NCBI RefSeq assembly: GCF_001968825.1
Contig: NZ_MIEU01000002.1
Span: forward strand, 186,001 to 250,000
Reading direction: 5' to 3'
DNA from: Tersicoccus sp. Bi-70
GTDB taxonomy: Bacteria; Actinomycetota; Actinomycetes; Actinomycetales; Micrococcaceae
DNA length: 64,000 nucleotides
Shown: piece after piece, positions 36,356-49,344 of the stretch
Layout of the letters: each line of letters begins with the position of its first letter
Position numbering within the stretch: position 1 is the stretch's first letter
Position numbers and translations under genes: made by a program
Notes under the pieces: model-generated
Told to the model about the DNA's origin: nothing
The model's input: only the letters and a program-made list of their open reading frames with translations
Database searches by the model: none

Positions 36356-37210
36356 ATGAGCGATCTCGACTGGCTTCAGGAGCAGTTCGGCGTCACGATC
36401 GACGCCGAACTGCTTTCGCTTGCCCTGACGCACCGCTCGTACGCGTACGAGCACGGCGGCATCCCGACGAACGAGCGCCTCGAGTTCCTCGGCGACTCCA
36501 TCCTCGGCTTCGCCGTCACCGATTTCCTGTTCCGTGAGAACCCGGACCTCTCCGAGGGCGAGCTCGCGAAGCTCCGCTCCGCCGTGGTCAGCACCCGGGC
36601 CCTCGCGAACGTCGCCCGCGGCCTGGACGTGGGCGACCACATCCACCTGGGCCAGGGCGAGAAGATGACGAACGGCCGGGACAAGGCCTCGATCCTCGCC
36701 GACACCATGGAGGCGATCTTCGGGGCCACCTACGTGGATCTCGGCATCGAGGCGGCACGTGACCTGGTGATGCGGCTGGTCGGGCCCCTGCTGACCGACG
36801 CCGAGGCGTTGATGGCCAGCACCGACTGGAAGACGAGCATCCAGGAGTACGCGGCACTGCGCCAGCTCAGCCCGGTGGACTACGGCGTCGTCGGAGAGGG
36901 CCCGGACCACGCCCGCCGGTTCACCGCGACCCTGACGATCGCCGGTGAGGTCTACGGTGTCGGCCGCGGGCACTCCAAGAAGGAAGCGGAGCAGGAGGCC
37001 GCTGCCGCCGGTTGGCGGATCGCCGCCGAGCGGACCGCCGTCCTCGGCACCGAGACCGGCAACGGGCAGGTCACCGATCCCGCCGTCGGCTCGAACGGGT
37101 CCACATCTCCGAACGGCTCGACGCCGGCGACGACGGCTGCGGTCGCCGTCGAGTCCGCGGATCCGCCCGTCGACGTCCCGGCCGACACTCCCGCCGACCC
37201 GACCCGCTGA
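36356..37210 (+). CDS. rnc: Ribonuclease III
   Basis: RNase III cleaves double-stranded RNA in rRNA maturation and mRNA turnover. The 284-aa protein has the catalytic signature [16 protein letters not shown] (residues 39-54), the second acidic site [13 protein letters not shown], and a dsRNA-binding domain ([12 protein letters not shown] to [13 protein letters not shown], about 160-225). A non-conserved Thr/Pro/Asp-rich tail of about 55 residues follows. The hairpin just upstream could be its own substrate. It lies 16 bp before mutM. Confidence 0.95.
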
Positions 37211-37226
37211 CACCCGGATACCGACC

Positions 37227-38243
37227 GTGCCAGAACTGCCCGAGGTCGAGGTCGTCCGGCGCGGCCTCGCCCCGTGGGCGGTAGGCCGGACCGTCACCGC
37301 GGTCGACGTCGTCGACCCCCGCTCGGTCCGCCGCCAGCTCGGCGGGCCCGACGCCTTCACCACCGCCCTCACCGGCCGCCGGCTCGCCGCCGCCGTCCGT
37401 CGCGGCAAGTTCCTCTGGCTCCCGCTCACCGACGCCGGCCCCCTCGCTCCCGACGACGGGGCAGCGCCGTCCGCCCTGGTCGTGCACCTGGGCATGAGCG
37501 GGCAGGTGCTCATCCAGCCCGCCGGGAAGCCGGACGAGAACCACCTGCGCATCCGGCTGCATCTGGCGCCGGAGCTTTCCACTCCCGCTGACGTCGAGGC
37601 CGTGGATGCGAGCTCCGTCGTCGACGCACCCGCGCCAGACGAGCCCGAGCAGCAGCTCCGCTTCGTCGACCAGCGGATCTTCGGCGGCATGCACGTGGAC
37701 CGGCTCGTCGGCACGGAGGACGGCGCACCCGGCGGCGCCGGCAGCGACGCACCGCTGATCCCGTCCAGTGCCGCGCACATCGCGCGCGACCCGCTGGACC
37801 CCGCCTTCGACGCCGCCGCCTTCACCGCGCGGCTCCGGCGCCGGCGCACCGGCATCAAACGCGCCCTCCTGGACCAGTCCCTGATCTCCGGCATCGGCAA
37901 CATCTACGCCGACGAGTCGCTGTGGCGCGCCCGGCTGCACTACGCGCGTCCCACCGAGACCCTGCGACGGAGCGAGGTCGAGCGGGTGCTTGCCGCCTGT
38001 CGCGAGGTGATGGGCACCGCGCTGGAGGCGGGCGGCACGAGCTTCGACGCGCTCTACGTCAACGTCAACGGCCAGTCCGGGTACTTCGACCGGTCGCTGG
38101 CCGTCTACGGGCAGACCGGGCGGCTGTGCCCGCGCTGCTCCGCGAACGGCCGGCACAGCGTGATCCGGCGCGACTCGTTAATGAACCGCGGATCGTTCAC
38201 GTGCCCGGTGTGCCAGCCGCGGCCCCGCAACGCCCGCTGGTAG
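37227..38243 (+). CDS. mutM: Bifunctional DNA-formamidopyrimidine glycosylase / DNA lyase
   Basis: MutM (Fpg) removes 8-oxoguanine and formamidopyrimidines. Processing of the start GTG 37227 leaves the catalytic N-terminal proline of [13 protein letters not shown], with the essential glutamate next to it. The H2TH region ([17 protein letters not shown]) and a C-terminal zinc finger (CPRC...CPVC) are intact. The product is 338 aa, longer than usual (about 270-320), because of Ala/Pro/Asp-rich loops near residues 120-140 and 165-185. A TTA leucine codon, very rare in such DNA, occurs at 38178. It closes the yceD-rpmF-rnc-mutM unit. Confidence 0.95.
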
Positions 38244-38380: not shown

Positions 38381-40078
38381 ATGAAGGTTCGCGACGAGCA
38401 GTTCCGAGCGGGACACCCACGTCGGAGGGCCGTCTGGCGGACGTGGGCCGTGGTGACCGCGGTGATCGCCGCGTTCTCCCTGGTCATGACGCCGGCCGTC
38501 GGGCAGTCTCTCGACCCCTCGGCGTTCGGGTCCGCCACCGTCGCGGCCGATGACTCGGCCACCGCGGACTCCGGTCCGGCGGCGATCCCCGGAGCGGGCG
38601 TGCCCGCGACGGTGACGCCGAGGCTGACCGGACCGAGCGGCGCGCCTCTGACGTCCACGCGGATCACGGGCCCGATCCGGGTCACCTCGACGTCGTACCC
38701 GTTCGGGGCGGCGAACCACACGAGGGTTCCCGAGAATCTGGCCGCCATCGGCTACGTCGAGGAGGAGTACTTCGTCAGCGGGCTGGCCAACGTCTACACG
38801 TGGCCTGCGCCGGGCCCGGCCGTGGTGCGGACCGCCAACGCCCCGTACACGACGCGCATCCTCGTCCGCCGTCCCGCCCGGGCCAGCGCGTTCAGCGGCA
38901 ACGTCGTCGTCGAACCGCTCAACCCGTCGAACCTGTTCGACCTCAACCTCGGCTGGGGGCTGATGCACGAGCAGCTGATCCGCAACGGCGACGTGTGGGT
39001 GGGGGTGACGGTCAAGCCCGTCTCGATGCAGACCCTCAAGACGTTCAACCCGGTGCGCTACGCACCGCTGAGCATGAACAACCCGCTGCCGCTGGACGAC
39101 CCGCGCAACTGCGCCACGGTGCCCGCGGACAGCTCGCGGACCACCGAGAACGGCCTGGCCTGGGACATCTACAGCCAGGTCGGCCAGTTGCTGCGGACGT
39201 CGGCCAGCCCGGTGCACTACGGCGGCGCGAAGGCGCACCACGCGCTCAAGCTCTACGGCTTCGGGTACTCGCAGACCGGCGGGTACATGTACGACTACAT
39301 CAACGCGGTGGCCCCCCGGGTCAAGGCAGAGACCGGGCGGTCGATCTACGACGCGTACATCGTCGCCGTCGCGGGCGGCGCCTTCGCCGGCATCTACCCG
39401 ATCAACCAGTGCGAGGCGCTCCCGGCGCTGGGCGACCCGCGCCGCCAGTTCTCCAACGTCGGGGTGCCGATCATTCACGTGATGTCGCAGTCGGACTACC
39501 TGCGGGGCATCACGGCGCGACGGCCGGACAGCGACGTTCCCAGTGACGCCTACCGGCAGTACGAGATGGCTGGGGCCGGGCACGCGACGCAGACCGAACT
39601 GGACTTCGCCGCCGCTCCTGCGGACATCGAGAAGGGCGGACGCGCGGTGCCGCCGTCGAACTGCAACGAGGGCCCGCGCAGCCGGTTCCCGAGCTCGATT
39701 TTCTTCGACGCCTTCCTGCGGAACCTCGACGACTGGGTCCGGCGGGGGATCGCTCCGCCGCACGGCTCGCCGATCGTGGTGCAGAACGGGGCTCCGGTGC
39801 TGGACCGGTTCGGCAACGTGGTCGGTGGTCTGCGTTCGCCCTACCTCGATGTGCCGACGTCCACCTGGTACGGCAGTTCGACCGGGCCGTCCTTCTGTGC
39901 GATCGCCGGCCACGAGGTTCCGTTCAGCCAGGCGCTGCTGCAGCAGATCTACCCGACGCACACGGTGTACGTCAGGGCGGTCGCGAAGGACACGCGGGCG
40001 CTGGTCAAGCAGCGGTTCATCACCCGCTACGACGGTGACCGGCTCGTGCGGGAGGCCTCGACGGCTGAAGTGCCGTGA
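38381..40078 (+). CDS. Secreted alpha/beta-hydrolase domain protein
   Basis: This 565-aa protein has a Sec-type signal peptide: basic start with RRR, hydrophobic core near residues 24-38, and a likely cleavage after an Ala-rich site near 42. The body fits the large alpha/beta-hydrolase-domain family seen in actinobacteria and proteobacteria (Abhydrolase_10 type, by recall). The nucleophile elbow is GFGYSQTGGY with Ser 297, and a late GAGHAT supplies the likely catalytic His. Several cysteines (NCATV, NQCEA, SNCNE, SFCAI) could form disulfides outside the cell. The substrate is unknown, but an ester is likely. GGAGGAATC lies directly before ATG 38381. A strong hairpin follows the stop. Confidence 0.78.
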   Translation: MKVRDEQFRAGHPRRRAVWRTWAVVTAVIAAFSLVMTPAVGQSLDPSAFGSATVAADDSATADSGPAAIPGAGVPATVTPRLTGPSGAPLTSTRITGPIRVTSTSYPFGAANHTRVPENLAAIGYVEEEYFVSGLANVYTWPAPGPAVVRTANAPYTTRILVRRPARASAFSGNVVVEPLNPSNLFDLNLGWGLMHEQLIRNGDVWVGVTVKPVSMQTLKTFNPVRYAPLSMNNPLPLDDPRNCATVPADSSRTTENGLAWDIYSQVGQLLRTSASPVHYGGAKAHHALKLYGFGYSQTGGYMYDYINAVAPRVKAETGRSIYDAYIVAVAGGAFAGIYPINQCEALPALGDPRRQFSNVGVPIIHVMSQSDYLRGITARRPDSDVPSDAYRQYEMAGAGHATQTELDFAAAPADIEKGGRAVPPSNCNEGPRSRFPSSIFFDAFLRNLDDWVRRGIAPPHGSPIVVQNGAPVLDRFGNVVGGLRSPYLDVPTSTWYGSSTGPSFCAIAGHEVPFSQALLQQIYPTHTVYVRAVAKDTRALVKQRFITRYDGDRLVREASTAEVP

Positions 40079-40385: not shown

Positions 40386-40431
40386 GAGCACACCATAGGC
40401 TGCGGTGGCCCGCGACGGAAGGATGACCGCC

Positions 40432-40725
40432 ATGCTCAGAGCCGTCCGGGTCGACGAGCGGGACATGCTGCAGGTCGACGAGCGCGTGCGGCCGCTGCGG
40501 GTGCTCGATTCGTGGCTCGACCCGACGGACGGCCAGCTCCTGCGGACCGACAGCCATGACGTCGAGACGGACGACCTGGCCGAGGTCCACGCGTGGGTGG
40601 TCCGGCACGGCCGGACGACGGCGACCGTCAGCGAGGTGTACCGGCCGGTGGACGGATCCAGCCGCGCCGACGAAGGGAGATTCGTGCTCGTGGGCCGGTA
40701 TCGACTCGCGCCGCCGACGGAGTAG
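40432..40725 (+). CDS. Hypothetical protein, about 97 aa
   Basis: This is a small acidic protein (MLRAVRVDERDMLQVDERVR..., DSWLDPTDGQLLRT, HDVETDDLAEVHAWVV, RFVLVGRYRLAPP) without membrane segments or cysteines. It looks like a compact mixed alpha/beta fold. I cannot name the family. GGAAGG (40417-40422) lies 9 nt before ATG 40432; ATG 40423 is possible but sits directly against the ribosome site. It is divergent from the small membrane protein gene and convergent with the ole cluster. Confidence 0.5.
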   Translation: MLRAVRVDERDMLQVDERVRPLRVLDSWLDPTDGQLLRTDSHDVETDDLAEVHAWVVRHGRTTATVSEVYRPVDGSSRADEGRFVLVGRYRLAPPTE

Positions 40726-40760: not shown

Positions 40761-41780
40761 CTAGCCGCCGTAGTGCGCCGCGAGGCGGGCGAGACCGTCG
40801 TCGATCGTGACCGCCGGCGTCCAGTCGAGCACCTCACGGGTGTGCCGCTGGTCGAACCAGTGCGCGGTGGAGAGCTGCTCCGCGAGGAATCGAGTCATCG
40901 GCGGCTCGTCCCGGCTGTCTTCCGGGAAGCGCCGGAACCGCCACGCGGCCTCGACGACGCCGCCGGCTACCCGAGCCAGACGGCCGGGCACGTGCCATGA
41001 GGGTTCGGGGACACCGGCGGCCCGGCAGATGCCGCCGATCAGTTCCCCGACCGTGCGCGGTTGCCCGTTGGTGACGACGAGCGCCTGGCCGTGGACGTGC
41101 TCCATCCGGTGCAGTCCCGCCACGATCGCGGCGGCCGCGTTGTCGAGGTAGGTGGTGTCGATCAGGGCGGCACCGGCGTCGAGCAGCGGTAACCGGCCGC
41201 GCCGGGCGCGGTCGATCACGCGTTCGACCAGTTGGGTGTCGCCCGGACCCCACACGATGTGCGGGCGGATGGCGGTGACCCGGAATTCCGGTGTGTCCGC
41301 GGCCAGAGCGAGCAGTTCGGCGGCCGCCTTGGTCCGGGCGTAGTCGCCGCGGGCCCGCGCCGGGTCGGCCGGCTCGGCACCGGCCCCGACGATGGAGGAC
41401 CCATGGTGGGCGACCGAGGGGGAGGAGACGAAGACGACGTCGCCCACGTTCGCCGCCCGGGCCGCCGCCAGCAGCGCCGCCGTCCCGTCGACGTTGACCG
41501 CGACGAACTCGCTCGGGTCACCGGTGAAGGACACCTTCGCCGCGAGGTGGATCACCGCGTCGACACCGTTGACGGCACGGGCGAGAGCGTCCGGATCCGT
41601 CAGGGAACCGAGGACGTCCGTCGCACCGGCGACGGGTGCGGGCCGGCGCTGGAAGGTGCGCACCGTGTGGCCCTGGGTGACGAGCAGCTGGGCCACGGCG
41701 GAGCCGAGCAGGCCGCTCGCCCCCGTGACGAGCACCCGGCGGGACCTGGCGGTATCCGATCCCTGGGGCCCCGGCGTCAC
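40761..41780 (-). CDS. oleD: 2-alkyl-3-oxoalkanoate reductase OleD
   Basis: OleD reduces the beta-keto acid made by OleA to a 2-alkyl-3-hydroxyalkanoic acid with NADPH. The 339-aa extended short-chain dehydrogenase has the Rossmann motif TGASGLLGSAV (from residue 19), a serine in VFVSSPSVAHHGSS, and the YxxxK pair Tyr147/Lys151 (DYARTKAAAE). It resembles 3-beta-hydroxysteroid dehydrogenase/epimerase proteins, as expected. GTG 41780 overlaps the oleBC stop (GTGA). It is the last gene of the three-gene olefin operon. Confidence 0.9.
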   Translation of the reverse strand: MTPGPQGSDTARSRRVLVTGASGLLGSAVAQLLVTQGHTVRTFQRRPAPVAGATDVLGSLTDPDALARAVNGVDAVIHLAAKVSFTGDPSEFVAVNVDGTAALLAAARAANVGDVVFVSSPSVAHHGSSIVGAGAEPADPARARGDYARTKAAAELLALAADTPEFRVTAIRPHIVWGPGDTQLVERVIDRARRGRLPLLDAGAALIDTTYLDNAAAAIVAGLHRMEHVHGQALVVTNGQPRTVGELIGGICRAAGVPEPSWHVPGRLARVAGGVVEAAWRFRRFPEDSRDEPPMTRFLAEQLSTAHWFDQRHTREVLDWTPAVTIDDGLARLAAHYGG

Positions 41781-44473
41781 GGCGCGGACACCCGCTCGCC
41801 GGCCAGGACGCCGGACGCCCAGCGGGCGAGCGCCGACCGGTCGACCTTGGAGTTGTGGCGGATGTCGGTGGGCAGCCGGCGCACCTGCAGCACCGCCGCG
41901 AGATCGAGCTCGGGCATGACGGAGCGCAGCACCGAGCGCAGCGCATCCGCGGTGTGCCGGGGAGCGGGCCCGTCGCTGCGGGCACCCGGCACGGTCTCGA
42001 CGACGGCGACGGCAACCTGCGCCCCGACCGGGCCGACGCCGACCAGGGCCGTGCGAGCGACGCCGTCGACGGCGGCCATCCGCTGCTCGGCCTCGACCGG
42101 GGTGACCGGGCCGCTGCTGGTGCGCAGCACGTGCTGCAGCCGGCCTTCGACCCACAACCGGCCGGCGGCGTCGAGGTGGCCGACGTCGCCCGTGCGGTGC
42201 CAGCCGCGGTCGAAGGCCGCGGTCTCGGTCCGGTGGAGCCGGTCGTAGTGGTCCTTCACGTGCGGGGCGGCGACGAGGATCTCGCCGGAGACGCCGGGCA
42301 CCCCGGACGGGTCGCCCACGGCGGAGCCGGCCTCGTCGAAGGCGCTGATCGCCACGTGCGCCCCGGGCACCGGGGCGCCCACACAGACGCCGTTGCCCGC
42401 CCCGGCCACGGCCGGAGCAGCCCCGGGACCATGCCCGGAACCGGCCCGGTGGACGGGCTGGGCGTCGGCCGCCGCCGCCCGGATGCCGGGCAGGTCGATG
42501 TCGGTGATGGGCAGTGCCTCGGTCATCCCGTAGGGGGTGTGCAGCCGGGCCTGCGGGACGAGCGTGGAGACGGCGGCCAACAGCGGTTCGCCGATGGGGG
42601 CCCCGGCGGAGAGCAGGAGGTCGATCCGGTCCAGGGCGTCGCGATGGCGGGCGTCCAGCCCGCCGGCCGTGGCGAGCACGTTGACCAGGGCGGCGGGGGA
42701 GGCGAACACCGTGGTCGCCTCGATCGCTGCGGCGGCATCGGCGAGGGCGGTCGCGGTCAGCGTCGCGGGAGCGGTGACGTCCATGGCCGGGCTCACCGAC
42801 GTCGCACCCAGCGCCGGCCCGAGCAGGGCGAACGGGGCGAACGCGGCGACCAGGGCGGTGCCCGGCGCGAGCCCGTACGTGGTCGAGACGGCCCGGCACA
42901 TCGCGGAGAGCTGCCGGTGCGTGTAGGCGACACCCTTGGCCGGGCCGGTGGAACCGGAGGTGAAGAGGATCGCGGCGAGATCGTCCGCCTGCGGCTCGTG
43001 CTGCAGGAGCGAGCCGGCCGTGTCCCCGGCGGCGAGCACCTCGGCGAGGCTGTGGTCGACGCCGAGCACCCGGCGGGTGACGGGGTCGGGGGTGCGCACG
43101 GAGATCCGGCGTCCCGGCCAGTTGAAGGCCCGGGCGGCGACGAGGGCGCGGTCGATGCCGATCACCCAGTCCGGCCCGGCACCGCGGACGGCCCGGCTCA
43201 GCCCGCGCGGCCCGAGACCCGCGTCGGCGACGACGATGACGGCACCCAGACGCAGGCCGGCGTAGATCAGGCAGGTCAGGTCGATGCCCGGGGGCACCAG
43301 CAGGCTGATCCGGTGCCCGGGACGGACGCCGACGGCGAGCAGGCCGCGGCGCAGCCGGTCGACGCGTGCGGCCAGGTCCTGCCAGCTCAGACGCATCGGC
43401 CGGCCACCGGGACCGGCCATGTCGACGACCGCGACCGCGGTGTCCGCGGCACGCTCCTCGAGCGTGGCCCACAGGGGCCGGTGGTCCCGGTCGGGCAGGG
43501 TCAGGCGGGAGCCGCGCAGCTGGTCCGCGTCGGCACGGTCGGCGGGCAGCCGCTCGCCGAGCCAGTCCAGCAGCGTCTCCGCCACCGGGGCGTCCTCGAT
43601 CACCAGGTGTCCGGCGCCCTCGAACCGGTGCACGTCCGCATGCGGGAGCCGGTCGACCAGGTCCCGCAGGTAGCGGTCGGCGAAGATCGGGTCCTCGGGT
43701 CCCCACAGCAGCAGCGCGGGCACGTCGAGTCCACGCACGCCCTCGGCGATCCGGTCCAGCTCCGGGAAGCTCGCGGTGGCGGCGTCGACGGGGATGTCGG
43801 CCACGAACTGGCCGACGCCGCCGCGCCGGCGGGCGTGGCGGTACGGCGTCCGGTAGGCGCGGCGCACGGCCGGGTCCAGCGCGGGCCGGGCCAGGCCGAG
43901 GGTGATGTCGAGGAACGCCGTCGTGGTCACCGTGCCGGGCCGGTGGATCGCCGGGTGCAGGGCGAGCCGCAGCGGCCAGGGCAGGGACTCGCCGTCGGGC
44001 TGGTGCACCGCGGTGTTGGTGAGCACGACGCCGGCGAGGGCATCGGGGTGGTCGACGGCCCAGCCGAGGCTGATGCTGCCGCCCCAGTCGTGGCCGACGG
44101 TCACGACGGGGCCGGTCAGCCCGAGCGCGTCGGTCAGGTCGCCGAGGTCGGTGACGCGGTCGGCGAGCCGGCGGGGCCCGGTACGGGCGGAGAAGCCCAT
44201 GTCGAGCTGGTCGACGGCGATCACACGCCACGGGCCACCCTCGCTGGCGATGCGTCGGGCGGCCGGTTCGAGCAGGGACCGCCACAGGTAGCCCCACGTG
44301 GGGTTGCCGTGCACGCACAGGAGGGTGCCGGCGGGGGTGACGTCGTCGGGGATGAGGGCGGCGTTGTCGAGCAGGTGCCAGCGGTGCACGGCGCCCGCAT
44401 CGACGGCGGCGGAGGAGGTCACCGGCAGGTACCGGGAGCAGCCCTCGGGGACGCCGGGCCAGGCGGATGTCAC
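41777..44473 (-). CDS. OleBC fusion: beta-lactone decarboxylase / beta-lactone synthetase
   Basis: This 898-aa protein fuses two steps of long-chain olefin synthesis. Residues 1 to about 320 form an OleB alpha/beta-hydrolase of the haloalkane-dehalogenase type: HGNPTWGYLWRSLL, the nucleophile Asp in VGHDWGGS (near 126), and a late histidine in GAGHLVIED. From about residue 345 an OleC-type AMP-forming domain follows, with LFTSGSTGPAKGVAYTHRQL near 502, YGMTEALP and GWHRTGDVGHLD. OleC closes the hydroxy acid to a beta-lactone with ATP and OleB decarboxylates it to a cis-alkene. The same fusion is known in Micrococcus luteus. GTG 44473 overlaps the oleA stop. Confidence 0.93.
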   Translation of the reverse strand: MTSAWPGVPEGCSRYLPVTSSAAVDAGAVHRWHLLDNAALIPDDVTPAGTLLCVHGNPTWGYLWRSLLEPAARRIASEGGPWRVIAVDQLDMGFSARTGPRRLADRVTDLGDLTDALGLTGPVVTVGHDWGGSISLGWAVDHPDALAGVVLTNTAVHQPDGESLPWPLRLALHPAIHRPGTVTTTAFLDITLGLARPALDPAVRRAYRTPYRHARRRGGVGQFVADIPVDAATASFPELDRIAEGVRGLDVPALLLWGPEDPIFADRYLRDLVDRLPHADVHRFEGAGHLVIEDAPVAETLLDWLGERLPADRADADQLRGSRLTLPDRDHRPLWATLEERAADTAVAVVDMAGPGGRPMRLSWQDLAARVDRLRRGLLAVGVRPGHRISLLVPPGIDLTCLIYAGLRLGAVIVVADAGLGPRGLSRAVRGAGPDWVIGIDRALVAARAFNWPGRRISVRTPDPVTRRVLGVDHSLAEVLAAGDTAGSLLQHEPQADDLAAILFTSGSTGPAKGVAYTHRQLSAMCRAVSTTYGLAPGTALVAAFAPFALLGPALGATSVSPAMDVTAPATLTATALADAAAAIEATTVFASPAALVNVLATAGGLDARHRDALDRIDLLLSAGAPIGEPLLAAVSTLVPQARLHTPYGMTEALPITDIDLPGIRAAAADAQPVHRAGSGHGPGAAPAVAGAGNGVCVGAPVPGAHVAISAFDEAGSAVGDPSGVPGVSGEILVAAPHVKDHYDRLHRTETAAFDRGWHRTGDVGHLDAAGRLWVEGRLQHVLRTSSGPVTPVEAEQRMAAVDGVARTALVGVGPVGAQVAVAVVETVPGARSDGPAPRHTADALRSVLRSVMPELDLAAVLQVRRLPTDIRHNSKVDRSALARWASGVLAGERVSAP

Positions 44474-45495
44474 CAGGCGATCTCCAGCATCGCCGTGTTC
44501 AGGCCCGAGCCGACGCCCATGCACAGCACCCGGTCCCCGGCGTTGAGCGTCTGCGACTCCATGGCCAGGGTCATCGGCAGCGACGCCGGACCCACATTGC
44601 CCCAGGTCGGGAATGTCATCGGCACGCGGGACTTGTCCAGTCCGACGGCGTCGATGATCGCGTCCGTGTGGATGGTGCTGACCTGGTGGGTGACGTAGCG
44701 GTCCATCGAGCGCCAGTCCCAGCCGTTCTCGTGCGCTTCGCTCCAGGCGTCGACGACCAGCTCGAGGCCGCCCTTGAGCAGGCCCCCGTGATCGGTGTAC
44801 ATACCGTCGACGCCGCCGACGCACAGCTCGTGGTGCTCGCTTCCGGCGCGGGAGACGCCGCCGACGATGCGGTGCGAGCCGGGGTGCGCGTCCGCAGGCC
44901 CGAGGACGGCGGCCGCGGCACCCGACCCGAGGGTCAGGGTCGCGAACTCACGGTTGAAATCCGCGCGGGTGGCGTCCGGCCCGTTCAGCCGCGCGATGGT
45001 GGCCTCCTGGGTGGCCTGCGCGTCCTCGCCGTTGACGATCACGGCGTACTGGATCTGCCCGGCGTCGATCATGTTGGCGGCCAGCGAGATGCCGTTGACG
45101 AAACCGAGGCACGCGTTGGCGACGTCGAAGTTCATCGCGGACGAGGGGAGCCCCAGACCGTGGTGGATCTTCACGGCCACGGAGGGCTCGAGATTGATGC
45201 GTGTCACGGACGTGTTGATCAGCAGGCCCACCTGGCCCGGCTCGATGCCGGCGGAGGCCAGCGCCTTCGCTCCGGCCTCGATGGCGGCGTCGTCGAACGC
45301 GGTCCCCGGTGCCCACCAGCGGCGCTCCCGGATGCCGGCCACCCGCTCCAGCAGCTTGCGTGACAGCCGCAGACGCTTCAGGGCGCCGCCGAGACGGTCG
45401 TCGAATTCTGCGCTGGTCACCACCACGGGCGCCTCGATGCTCGTGACGGAGAGCAGGGCGGTGTTGCGGTGGAGGAAGGTAGCGTTGCCGGTCAA
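44470..45495 (-). CDS. oleA: Acyl-CoA head-to-head condensing enzyme OleA
   Basis: OleA is a thiolase-fold enzyme that joins two long-chain acyl-CoAs by non-decarboxylative Claisen condensation. The 341-aa protein has the catalytic cysteine C129 (FDVANACLGFVNG), His270 (YVTHQVSTIH), Asn300 (WGNVGPAS), and the OleA-specific glutamate E103 (RINLEPS) that deprotonates the partner across the dimer. That glutamate and the linked oleBC/oleD genes separate it from FabH. The start appears to be TTG 45495; an upstream GTG is followed directly by a stop. The promoter was not found with confidence in the 255-bp gap to smc. Confidence 0.93.
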   Translation of the reverse strand: MTGNATFLHRNTALLSVTSIEAPVVVTSAEFDDRLGGALKRLRLSRKLLERVAGIRERRWWAPGTAFDDAAIEAGAKALASAGIEPGQVGLLINTSVTRINLEPSVAVKIHHGLGLPSSAMNFDVANACLGFVNGISLAANMIDAGQIQYAVIVNGEDAQATQEATIARLNGPDATRADFNREFATLTLGSGAAAAVLGPADAHPGSHRIVGGVSRAGSEHHELCVGGVDGMYTDHGGLLKGGLELVVDAWSEAHENGWDWRSMDRYVTHQVSTIHTDAIIDAVGLDKSRVPMTFPTWGNVGPASLPMTLAMESQTLNAGDRVLCMGVGSGLNTAMLEIAW

Positions 45496-45634
45496 ATCAC
45501 GAGCTTTCGTCGTTTACGTCGCTTGCTGGAACACGTCGCCGCGCCGTCGCCGCGGACGCGTCCGCGGGGACACGCGCGCACGTCGTCCGGGTGGGACGTG
45601 ACACGACACAGTTAACTATGGACCGTCAGCACCC

Positions 45635-45663
45635 TTGGCTGCATATGCACTGCGGTGAATACT
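45635..45663 (+). promoter_or_regulatory. Candidate smc promoter
   Basis: TTGGCT (45635-45640) and AATACT (45658-45663) are 17 bp apart, giving a leader of about 80 nt before GTG 45751. The predicted transcript starts after GTG 45655, which argues against that longer smc start. Confidence 0.45.
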
Positions 45664-45750
45664 ACCGGTCCAGCCGATACGCTGACCGTGAGCGCGACCC
45701 GACCCGGGAGCGACGATCCAACGGCCGGTGTGGCGACGACGGGAGGCCCG

Positions 45751-48700
45751 GTGCACCTGAAGACGCTCACCGTGCGCGGCTTCAAGTCGTTCGCCTCGGC
45801 GACCACGTTCCAGTTCGAGCCGGGCGTCACCGCCGTCGTCGGGCCCAACGGCTCGGGCAAGTCCAACGTCGTCGACGCCCTCGCCTGGGTGATGGGGGAG
45901 CAGGGCGCCAAGACCCTGCGCGGCGGCAAGATGGAGGACGTCATCTTCGCCGGCACCTCCGGCCGGCCCCCGCTCGGCCGGGCCCAGGTGTCCCTGACGA
46001 TCGACAACACCGACGGCGCCCTGCCGATCGAGTACACCGAGGTCACCATCTCCCGGACCCTGTTCCGGTCCGGCGGCTCGGAGTACGCCATCAACGGCGC
46101 CACCTGCCGGTTGCTGGACATCCAGGAGTTGCTCTCCGACTCGGGCCTGGGCCGGCAGATGCACGTCATCGTCGGGCAGGGCCAGCTCGACGCCGTCCTG
46201 CACGCCACCGGTGAGGAGCGGCGCGGCTTCATCGAGGAGGCCGCCGGCATCCTCAAGCACCGGCGCCGCAAGGAGAAGACGGTCCGCAAGCTCGAGGCGA
46301 TGCAGGCCAACCTGACCCGCCTGACCGACCTGACCGGGGAGATCCGGCGGCAGCTGACCCCGCTCGGCAAGCAGGCGGCCGTCGCCCGCCGCGCCCAGCA
46401 GGTCCAGTTCGAGGTGCGGGACGCGAAGGCGCGACTGCTGGCCGACGAGCTCGTCACCCTCACCGAACGGCTCGCCACGGACCTGGCCGACGAGGAGGCG
46501 CTGCGCACGCGCCGTGCCGAGCTGGAGGTGCGCCTGGAGGCCGGCCGCGAACGGCAGGGCGAGCTCGAGTCCGCCGCCGCTCGGGCCACCCCGGCCCTGA
46601 ACGCCGCCCGCGACGCCTGGTACCAGCTCTCCTCGCTGAGGGACCGGTTCACCGCGCTGGCACACCTGGCGGAGGAGCGTCGCCGGTTGCTCGGTAGTGC
46701 GGAGGCGCCGGCCCGCAGCGGCCGGGACCCCGAACAGCTCGAGCAGCAGGCCGCCGCGGTCCGCGTCGAGGAGGCCGACCTGGCGCGGGCACTCGACGCC
46801 GCCCGCGAGACCCTGACCGCGGCGCTGGACGCCCGCGCGCGGGCCGAGGCCGCCGCCACGGCCGAGGACAAGCGGCTCACCGCCCTGATGCGGGCCGCCG
46901 CGGACCGGCGGGAGGGCATCGCCCGGCTCACCGGCGCCGTCGGGGCCGCCCGCACCCGGGTCGAGTCCGCCGAGGCCGAGCTCGGCCGGCTGCGGGAGAT
47001 GATCGCCGACGCCACCGCCCGCGCCGAGGGCGCCCGCTCCGAGTTCGCCGCCCTGGAGGGCCAGGTCGCCGGCGTCGAGGAGGGCGAAGAGGGGCTGGAC
47101 GCCGCGTACGAGCAGGCCAGCGCCGTCGTCGAGCAGCTGGAGGCCGACCTCGAGACCGCCCGCCAGCAGGAGCGCGACGCCGAACGGGAACGCGACGCCC
47201 TGGCCGCCCGGATCGAGGCGCTGGAGGTGGGACTGGACCGGCGCGACGGCGCCGAGACCCTGCGCGACGCCGTGGCCGAGGGCCGGCTGGACGGCGTCGT
47301 CGGCGGGGTCGCCGAACTGGTCGGGGTGGCCCAGGGCTGGGAGCCCGCCATCGCCGCCGCACTCGGGTCCGCCGCCGAGGCGCTCGCCGTCACCGGCCAC
47401 GACGCCGCCCGCCGGGCCCTGGACCTGCTCCGCGAGCGGGACGCCGGCCGCGCGGACCTGCTCATCACCGACGCAGCCGCCCTGCCGCCGCTGCTGCCGA
47501 CCGACGCCGACCTGCCCGAGGGTGCGGTGCGTGCCACCGCCCTGATCCGCGCCGAAGCGGCCCTCGGGACGACCCTGGAGAGCCTGCTCGCCGACGTCGT
47601 CGTCGTGCCCGACGCGCCGCTCGCGGCCACCGTCCTCGCCGCCCACCCCCGCGCTCGCGTCGTCACGCAGGACGGCGACGTCTTCACCGCGGTCAGCGCC
47701 CACGGCGGTGCGGCCAGCGAGGCCAGCCTGATCGAGCTGCAGGCCGCGATCGACGAGTCGCGGACCGCGCGGGACGCCGCCTCCGCCCGGTGGGAGCAGG
47801 CCCGGTTCGCCCAGTCCGGCGTCGCGGCCCGGCTCACCGACGCGAAGGCCGAGGCCGACGCGGCCCTCGACGACCTGCACGCCTCCGACGCCCGGCTCGC
47901 GGCCGTCGCCGAGCGGCTCGGGGGGTTCGGTTCGGCGATGCGCTCGGCCGAGGCGGAGCGCACGCGCCTGGACGCCGCCGTCGAGACCGCACGGGCCACG
48001 ATCGAGCGCGAGCAGGCCGCCCTGTCCACTGCGGCCGACCGGCTGAGCGCGGCCCGGGAAGCCCCGGACGAGGACGCGGAACCGGACACCGACCGCCGGG
48101 ACGAGCTCGCGGCCGCCGCCACGGCCGCGCGGGCCGCCGAGATGGAGGCCCGGCTGAGCGTGCGCAGCACCGAGGAACAGCTGACGTCCTGCAGCCAGCG
48201 GGCCCAGTCCCTCGAACGCGCCGCCCGCACGGAGAAGGCCGCCCGGGCCGAGGCGGAACAGCGGGCCCGCCGGCGCCGGTACCAGGCCGCCAAGGCGCTC
48301 GCCGTCGGGTCGGCCGCCACCGTCGTCGCCCAGCACGTGACCGTCTCCCTCCAGCTCGCCGCGGCGGCCCGGGACGCGGCCGAGCAGACCCGGGCACGGC
48401 TGGACGCCGAGCTGACCGAGCTGCGCGGCGGCAACGAGGACGTCAACCGGGAGCTGGCGCAGCTGGTCGACAGCGTGCACCGGGACGAACTGGCCCGCGA
48501 GCGGCAGCGGGCCGCGATCGAGGCCGTGCAGAACCGGGCCGCCGACGAACTGGGCCTCAGCGCCGAGAACCTCGTCGCCGAGTACGGGCCGGAGGTGCCC
48601 GTGCCGGCCGCCGCAGGCGGGAACAGCACGGTCGAGGACAAGTGGGCCGAGCTCGGACCTGCCGGTGAGCCGGCGTCCGTGCCGTTCGTGCGCGACGAGC

Positions 48701-49344
48701 AGGCGAAGCGGCTGCGCAGGGCCGAGCGGGACCTCGCGGCGCTCGGCAAGGTCAACCCGCTGGCGCTGGAGGAGTTCGCGGCTCTGGAGGAGCGGCACAA
48801 GTTCCTGGCGAGCCAGCTCGAGGACCTCAAGGCCAGCCGTGCGGACCTGCTGCAGATCATCGCCGAGGTGGACCAGCGGGTGCAGGAGGTGTTCGGGGCC
48901 GCCTTCGCGGACACCGCCACCCAGTTCGAGCACGTCTTCTCCCGGCTGTTCCCGGGCGGCGAGGGGCGGCTCGTGCTGACCGACCCGGACGACCTGCTCG
49001 CCACCGGCGTCGAGATCGAGGCGCGGCCCGCGGGCAAGAAGGTCAAGCGCCTGTCCCTGCTCTCCGGCGGGGAGCGGTCCCTGACGGCCGTGGCGCTGCT
49101 GGTGGCGATCTTCATGGCCCGGCCGAGCCCGTTCTACGTCATGGACGAGGTCGAGGCGGCCCTGGACGACACCAACCTGCAACGGCTCATCGGCATCCTC
49201 GAAGAGCTGCGTGCGTCCAGCCAGCTCATCATCATCACGCACCAGAAGCGGACGATGGAGATCGCCGACGCCCTGTACGGGGTGAGCATGCGCGGCGACG
49301 GCGTGTCCGCCGTCATCAGTCAGCGGATCGGGGTTCTCCAGTAG
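45751..49344 (+). CDS. smc: Chromosome segregation protein SMC
   Basis: SMC is the ATPase of the SMC-ScpAB condensin that loads at parS and compacts chromosomes. The 1197-aa protein starts with VHLKTLTVRGFKSFA and Walker A GPNGSGKSN (residues 31-39). Two long coiled coils flank a hinge (about 500-640, with GRLDGVVGGVAELVGVAQGW). The signature LLSGGERSLTAVALL and Walker B FYVMDEVEAALDD lie near the C-terminus. GTG 45751 has GGGAGG 4 nt upstream; the frame extends 32 codons further up to GTG 45655, but that part is non-conserved and precedes the likely transcript start. It is separated from mutM by the ole region. Confidence 0.96.
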   Translation: MHLKTLTVRGFKSFASATTFQFEPGVTAVVGPNGSGKSNVVDALAWVMGEQGAKTLRGGKMEDVIFAGTSGRPPLGRAQVSLTIDNTDGALPIEYTEVTISRTLFRSGGSEYAINGATCRLLDIQELLSDSGLGRQMHVIVGQGQLDAVLHATGEERRGFIEEAAGILKHRRRKEKTVRKLEAMQANLTRLTDLTGEIRRQLTPLGKQAAVARRAQQVQFEVRDAKARLLADELVTLTERLATDLADEEALRTRRAELEVRLEAGRERQGELESAAARATPALNAARDAWYQLSSLRDRFTALAHLAEERRRLLGSAEAPARSGRDPEQLEQQAAAVRVEEADLARALDAARETLTAALDARARAEAAATAEDKRLTALMRAAADRREGIARLTGAVGAARTRVESAEAELGRLREMIADATARAEGARSEFAALEGQVAGVEEGEEGLDAAYEQASAVVEQLEADLETARQQERDAERERDALAARIEALEVGLDRRDGAETLRDAVAEGRLDGVVGGVAELVGVAQGWEPAIAAALGSAAEALAVTGHDAARRALDLLRERDAGRADLLITDAAALPPLLPTDADLPEGAVRATALIRAEAALGTTLESLLADVVVVPDAPLAATVLAAHPRARVVTQDGDVFTAVSAHGGAASEASLIELQAAIDESRTARDAASARWEQARFAQSGVAARLTDAKAEADAALDDLHASDARLAAVAERLGGFGSAMRSAEAERTRLDAAVETARATIEREQAALSTAADRLSAAREAPDEDAEPDTDRRDELAAAATAARAAEMEARLSVRSTEEQLTSCSQRAQSLERAARTEKAARAEAEQRARRRRYQAAKALAVGSAATVVAQHVTVSLQLAAAARDAAEQTRARLDAELTELRGGNEDVNRELAQLVDSVHRDELARERQRAAIEAVQNRAADELGLSAENLVAEYGPEVPVPAAAGGNSTVEDKWAELGPAGEPASVPFVRDEQAKRLRRAERDLAALGKVNPLALEEFAALEERHKFLASQLEDLKASRADLLQIIAEVDQRVQEVFGAAFADTATQFEHVFSRLFPGGEGRLVLTDPDDLLATGVEIEARPAGKKVKRLSLLSGGERSLTAVALLVAIFMARPSPFYVMDEVEAALDDTNLQRLIGILEELRASSQLIIITHQKRTMEIADALYGVSMRGDGVSAVISQRIGVLQ

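Follow-up and report, generated by a model that had tools for sequence, protein, structure and literature searches.

The window, that is, the whole stretch of 64,000 nucleotides from Tersicoccus sp. Bi-70 that was analysed, carries three predicted olefin synthesis genes, oleA, oleBC and oleD, which follow one another on the minus strand (Table 1). Neighbouring genes in this cluster overlap by 4 bp (oleA and oleBC at 44470-44473, oleBC and oleD at 41777-41780). An earlier note made from the letters of this DNA had described oleA, a fused oleBC and oleD joined by such overlaps, and the open reading frame coordinates agree with that description. Three long co-oriented frames, each matched to families along its full length, do not form a chance pattern. 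The start of oleA is placed at the TTG at 45495 or just before it as the same frame has a stop 7 codons before that TTG, and matches in relatives begin from the TTG residue. The host genome has one OleA match and one OleBC match; the other match of the OleA query is a FabH-like gene with 29% identity.

Table 1. Predicted genes and features in and around the ole cluster, in window positions
Feature	Position	Strand	Description
mutM	37227-38243	plus	NF002211 287 bits (cut-off 212), the match starting at residue 95 of ORF 36945-38243; on the oleD side
PF20091 alpha/beta-hydrolase gene	38381-40078	plus	565 aa, 465.5 bits; between mutM and oleD
106-aa ORF	40405-40725		between the PF20091 gene and oleD
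oleD	41780-40761	minus	339 aa, GTG start; predicted short-chain-type 2-alkyl-3-oxoalkanoate reductase
oleBC	44473-41777	minus	898 aa, GTG start; predicted fusion of beta-lactone decarboxylase and beta-lactone synthetase
oleA	45495-44470	minus	341 aa, TTG start; predicted thiolase-fold acyl-CoA condensing enzyme
oleA-smc intergenic	45496-45654		separates divergent oleA from the long smc ORF; presumed site of the oleA ribosome-binding region and of the two promoters
smc	45655-49344	plus	TIGR02168 899.6 bits; divergent from oleA

Family models back mutM, smc and ftsY, the genes from which the earlier note had recognised this neighbourhood, and the reading frame at 36356-37210, which it had called rnc, has a counterpart beside mutM in related loci. 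The ole block does lie between mutM and smc as was claimed, but mutM does not adjoin oleD, as the PF20091 gene and the 106-aa ORF intervene. As far as can be told, the PF20091 gene stands outside the olefin pathway; it was found in 3 of 59 genomes, and the copies in G002 and G032 are at other genome sites. Across 29 loci, the gap between mutM and oleD measured as little as 5 bp and as much as 6.2 kb. T. phoenicis (L035) and T. solisilvae (L036), both Micrococcaceae, are like the host in having the order smc-oleA-oleBC-oleD-mutM and an OleA 95% identical to that of the window. They are unlike it in the cargo of this gap, which is an HNH-nuclease-like gene in T. phoenicis (L035:16093-17091) and less than 0.2 kb in T. 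solisilvae. On the other flank, the match to the SMC model starts at residue 34-35 of the smc ORF, and the true smc start may lie further inside that ORF.

The placement of the cluster was compared across relatives in two collections. The 60 loci of the genome_contigs set (L035-L094) were picked by peptide patterns of the window OleA. One pattern (AMNFDVAN) overlaps the OleA signature treated below, which biases this set toward close relatives. In 29 of the 60 loci, smc was divergent upstream and mutM downstream, giving the order smc-oleA-oleBC-oleD-mutM. Among the remaining loci, 2 had smc without mutM in the fetched flank, 2 had smc with a short 3' flank and 21 had neither, while 6 of the 60 were too short on one or both sides for a full placement call. 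Arthrobacter, Pseudarthrobacter, Glutamicibacter, Paenarthrobacter and Paeniglutamicibacter have a fused OleBC as in the host and OleAs that are 74-80% identical to that of the host. However, unlike in the host, the cluster adjoins neither smc nor mutM in Glutamicibacter, Paeniglutamicibacter, Paenarthrobacter and several Pseudarthrobacter loci. Nine ORFs beside relocated clusters at five loci, searched with Pfam, revealed no shared neighbour, and four of the nine were without a family. One locus (L043), whose record bears the Firmicute name Sporosarcina beigongshangi, has an Arthrobacter-like smc-ole-mutM block with an OleA 79% identical to that of the window, and is probably from a mislabelled or contaminated assembly.

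Among 59 whole genomes, OleA-type matches (at least about 50% identity) were found in 34, and OleBC matches (E <= 1e-60) in the same 34. The OleA of G036 matches in two pieces and that of G017 is partial with one TAG, which could be decay or assembly error. Within the family, 29 of 37 genomes have ole genes, and in 19 of these 29 oleA is divergent from smc on the mutM side of smc. The distance between mutM and smc among those 19 is at most 13 kb in 16, 27 kb in G028 and 45 kb in G007, and in G030 mutM is on another contig. The ole genes are elsewhere in the other 10 (G003, G005, G011, G014, G016, G017, G022, G023, G024 and G035). A 222-aa N-terminal SMC query gave no match at E <= 1e-40 in G016, G022, G046 and G047, where SMC may be missing, diverged or fragmented; the smc side of ole in G016 and G022 is therefore outside the placement test. 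The smc-side arrangement was absent from the 5 ole-bearing genomes outside the family, of which G046 is one of those lacking an SMC match. Eight family genomes lack ole. Of these, G008, G013, G020 and G027 have a match-to-match distance of no more than 0.2 kb between mutM and smc, G010 and G012 one of no more than 2.2 kb and G021 one of 17 kb, while mutM gave no match in G015. The two genes are equally close, at no more than 0.2 kb, in G011, whose ole genes are at another site. These five family members with a close pair and no ole between show that ole interrupts a simpler order.

Trees of OleA and SMC were used to ask how this placement is distributed. On the OleA tree (16 rows), the mutM-smc placement required 5 changes; shuffling gave 10.4 on average, and a count this low in 1 of 500 trials. 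On the SMC tree (17 rows), it required 8 changes compared with an average of 13.0 after shuffling (0 of 500 as low); this tree came from a quick search in which the long branches G004 and G034 meet and G041, of another family, falls within Micrococcaceae. In neither tree did the outgroup form one side of a branch. The placement is clustered on both trees, yet it is not a single clade. G004 and G034, with OleAs of 59 and 57% identity, share the placement with the Arthrobacter-Tersicoccus group despite their distance from that group in the OleA tree. This suggests a site that is old and common to all of them. Additionally, eight OleAs with ole elsewhere, among them those of G041 and G043 from other families, form one group (100/98), which makes transfer between families possible.

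From these gene orders and trees, it is concluded that the smc-ole-mutM arrangement is an old trait of the family that has been lost or relocated in some members. It may stem from one ancient gain or from a few that hit the same site. It is very improbable that the ole block is instead a recent, horizontally gained accessory insertion into the mutM-smc interval. The five close mutM-smc pairs with no ole between (G008, G011, G013, G020 and G027) and the varying cargo of the mutM-oleD gap would fit such an insertion, but the common gene order in 29 of 60 loci, the divergence of oleA and smc in 19 of 29 ole-bearing family genomes and the clustering on both trees (5 against 10.4 and 8 against 13.0 changes) speak against it. 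Recent insertion was rejected on this shared order and tree clustering; the family may, however, have gained the block once, long ago, at its base. The earlier note had called the block an accessory insertion into conserved synteny and had proposed a comparison of the mutM-smc interval across genomes. That comparison, now run, bears it out in part: five ole-free close pairs do exist, but ole lies between the two genes in 29 of 60 loci, and the block is common to many genera, with OleAs down to 57-59% identity. A plasmid origin was also considered and rejected, as a tblastn search with OleA matched 87 of 72,556 plasmid records, in every case with a best place below 60% identity. Among the 20 plasmid matches listed, identity was 23-42%, and these look like general KAS III genes.

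The upstream end of oleA was compared in the same collections. At the aligned start, TTG was present in 54 of the 60 genome_contigs loci (GTG in 2, ATG in 2, no start codon in 2) and in 21 of 30 whole-genome OleAs (GTG in 6, no start codon in 3), though the two sets overlap in species and these are counts without a background rate of TTG starts in these genomes. A weak AAGGC-like motif about 10 bases before the oleA start recurs in the 54 TTG loci. One could propose that the lasting divergence of oleA and smc, the nearly fixed TTG and the weak AAGGC reflect selection for low OleA translation, and that the intergenic region common to both genes couples alkene synthesis to the expression of growth or chromosome-segregation genes, but this is unlikely.

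Turning to the enzymes, the OleBC protein has an OleB domain at about residues 40-306 and an OleC domain at about 334-893, and Pfam places a PF00561 alpha/beta hydrolase at 50-296 followed by a PF00501 AMP-binding domain at 345-740. The expected motifs of OleB include D129 (in HDWGG), D261 and H289, of which D261 is inferred to be the third triad residue, and the OleC P-loop TSGSTGPAKG is at residue 505. OleD is an epimerase/3-beta-HSD type reductase by Pfam and has Y147 and K151. The OleB nucleophile Asp, the OleC AMP-ligase motif and the OleD Tyr147/Lys151 named in the earlier note are thus all in place. Against the olefin beta-lactone synthetase models, which are of proteobacterial Xanthomonas/Shewanella types, the OleC part scored 290.8 and 235.8 bits where the cut-offs are 900 and 850; for OleBC these models rank second and third after PRK09274, a general fatty-acid-CoA-ligase model, whose 346.5 bits likewise stay under its cut-off of 478. 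The best two of 30 families for OleD were NF042422 (286.1 bits) and NF042423 (232 bits), again proteobacterial types and below cut-offs of 580. Since OleC and OleD fall far below the NCBIfam cut-offs, both assignments lean on context and motifs. In the PDB, matches of the OleB domain were haloalkane dehalogenases and those of the OleC domain fatty acyl-CoA ligases, with no Ole protein among them.

The fusion itself is shared widely. In 56 of 57 testable loci, a single frame between oleA and oleD encodes the fused OleB and OleC. In L055, the OleB and OleC matches lie in different frames, which could be decay or assembly error. In X. campestris, by contrast, we take the cluster to be a Gram-negative one with separate oleB and oleC. 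The earlier note had described the OleBC fusion, a single 898-aa frame here, as known from Micrococcus, and the Mlut_13230 region of M. luteus is described in PMC7158056 with the same gene set, the B-C fusion and the order A-BC-D. The fusion has also been called typical of Actinobacteria of the order Micrococcales (PMC7064751).

OleA scores above its model cut-off, with 458.7 bits against NCBIfam NF006720/PRK09258 (cut-off 285). Pfam finds KAS III / ACP_syn_III domains. Its score against PDB 3s21, which we take to be X. campestris OleA, was 269.9 bits (the best solved relatives reach about 270), whereas the best FabH-type chain reached 67 bits. The residues C129, H270, N300 and E103 (followed by P104) are at the positions that the earlier note gave, and each aligns with the same residue of 3s21, so that the catalytic Cys, His, Asn and Glu are shared with X. 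campestris OleA (3s21 and other PDB entries), in which the first three presumably carry the numbers 143/285/315. The glutamate has been numbered 117 (PMC7064751). The OleA search pattern of Surger et al. 2020, EPxx[AS]x(14,18)DxxNACL (PMC7158056), occurs at residues 103-130 of the window OleA and also in 30 of 30 whole-genome OleAs and 60 of 60 genome_contigs OleAs. It was not found in L001, L003 and L005, which cover the host genome's two other KAS III genes.

Taken together, the data point very strongly to a chromosomal Micrococcales-type oleA-oleBC-oleD operon that would make alkenes in a Tersicoccus-like host. Gene structure, the OleA family, catalytic motifs and gene order were obtained here, and reactions, product and expression are read across from characterised relatives. 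The step order OleA, OleD, OleC, OleB follows PMC7158056. OleA would join two fatty acyl-CoAs in a head-to-head condensation that involves no decarboxylation, giving a beta-keto acid, which OleD would reduce to a beta-hydroxy acid. The OleC domain, using ATP, would then close the beta-hydroxy acid to a beta-lactone, which the OleB domain would decarboxylate to a cis internal alkene. From the iso and anteiso C14-C16 fatty acids usual in the order, mostly C27-C29 branched monoalkenes would be expected. According to PMC7158056, Micrococcales olefins are for the most part anteiso-branched C27-C29 compounds, Kocuria and Kytococcus having shorter chains, and olefins are reported from every analysed genus with ole genes, including Arthrobacter, Pseudarthrobacter, Paenarthrobacter and Glutamicibacter. 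By analogy, C27-C29 branched alkenes are the best guess for the host product, although the C25-C31 range predicted in the earlier note is also compatible. Among the papers searched, none joined Tersicoccus and olefin, and a text search of the T. phoenicis dormancy paper (PMC12403811), as far as its text was available, found no lipid passage outside the references.

Natural-product pathways to beta-lactones share OleA, OleC and OleD (PMC7064751), and one might suppose that the end product here is a beta-lactone or ketone, with OleB silent or altered. This is highly unlikely given a full OleB domain with its Asp nucleophile and His, fused in frame, and the detection of olefins in all analysed ole-bearing genera according to PMC7158056. 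The remaining alternative, that OleA is a FabH-type KAS III in a cluster for ordinary fatty-acid synthesis, has next to no probability and is ruled out even though the two belong to one superfamily and OleA has ACP_syn_III domains, as FabH models gave it 94-110 bits, far below their cut-offs, compared with 458.7 for PRK09258, the 3s21 and FabH chain scores and the signature agree with this, the general-base glutamate is present and the host has a separate FabH-like gene at G000:C2:260925-261836. The earlier note had named an OleA lacking the glutamate and grouping with FabH as the result that would overturn its reading, and an OleA-type match with the glutamate was found instead.

The ole operon of the window adds an ordinary example to a known pathway; the complete pathway with the fusion is the norm in the family, and both the pathway and the oleBC fusion are already in print. 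A literature search on this point found no discussion of the smc-side placement, which is a modest synteny fact. What this study offers is a simple evolutionary picture of the ole operon site in Micrococcaceae and no new mechanism. With it, Tersicoccus, a genus known for clean-room isolates, joins the likely alkene makers.
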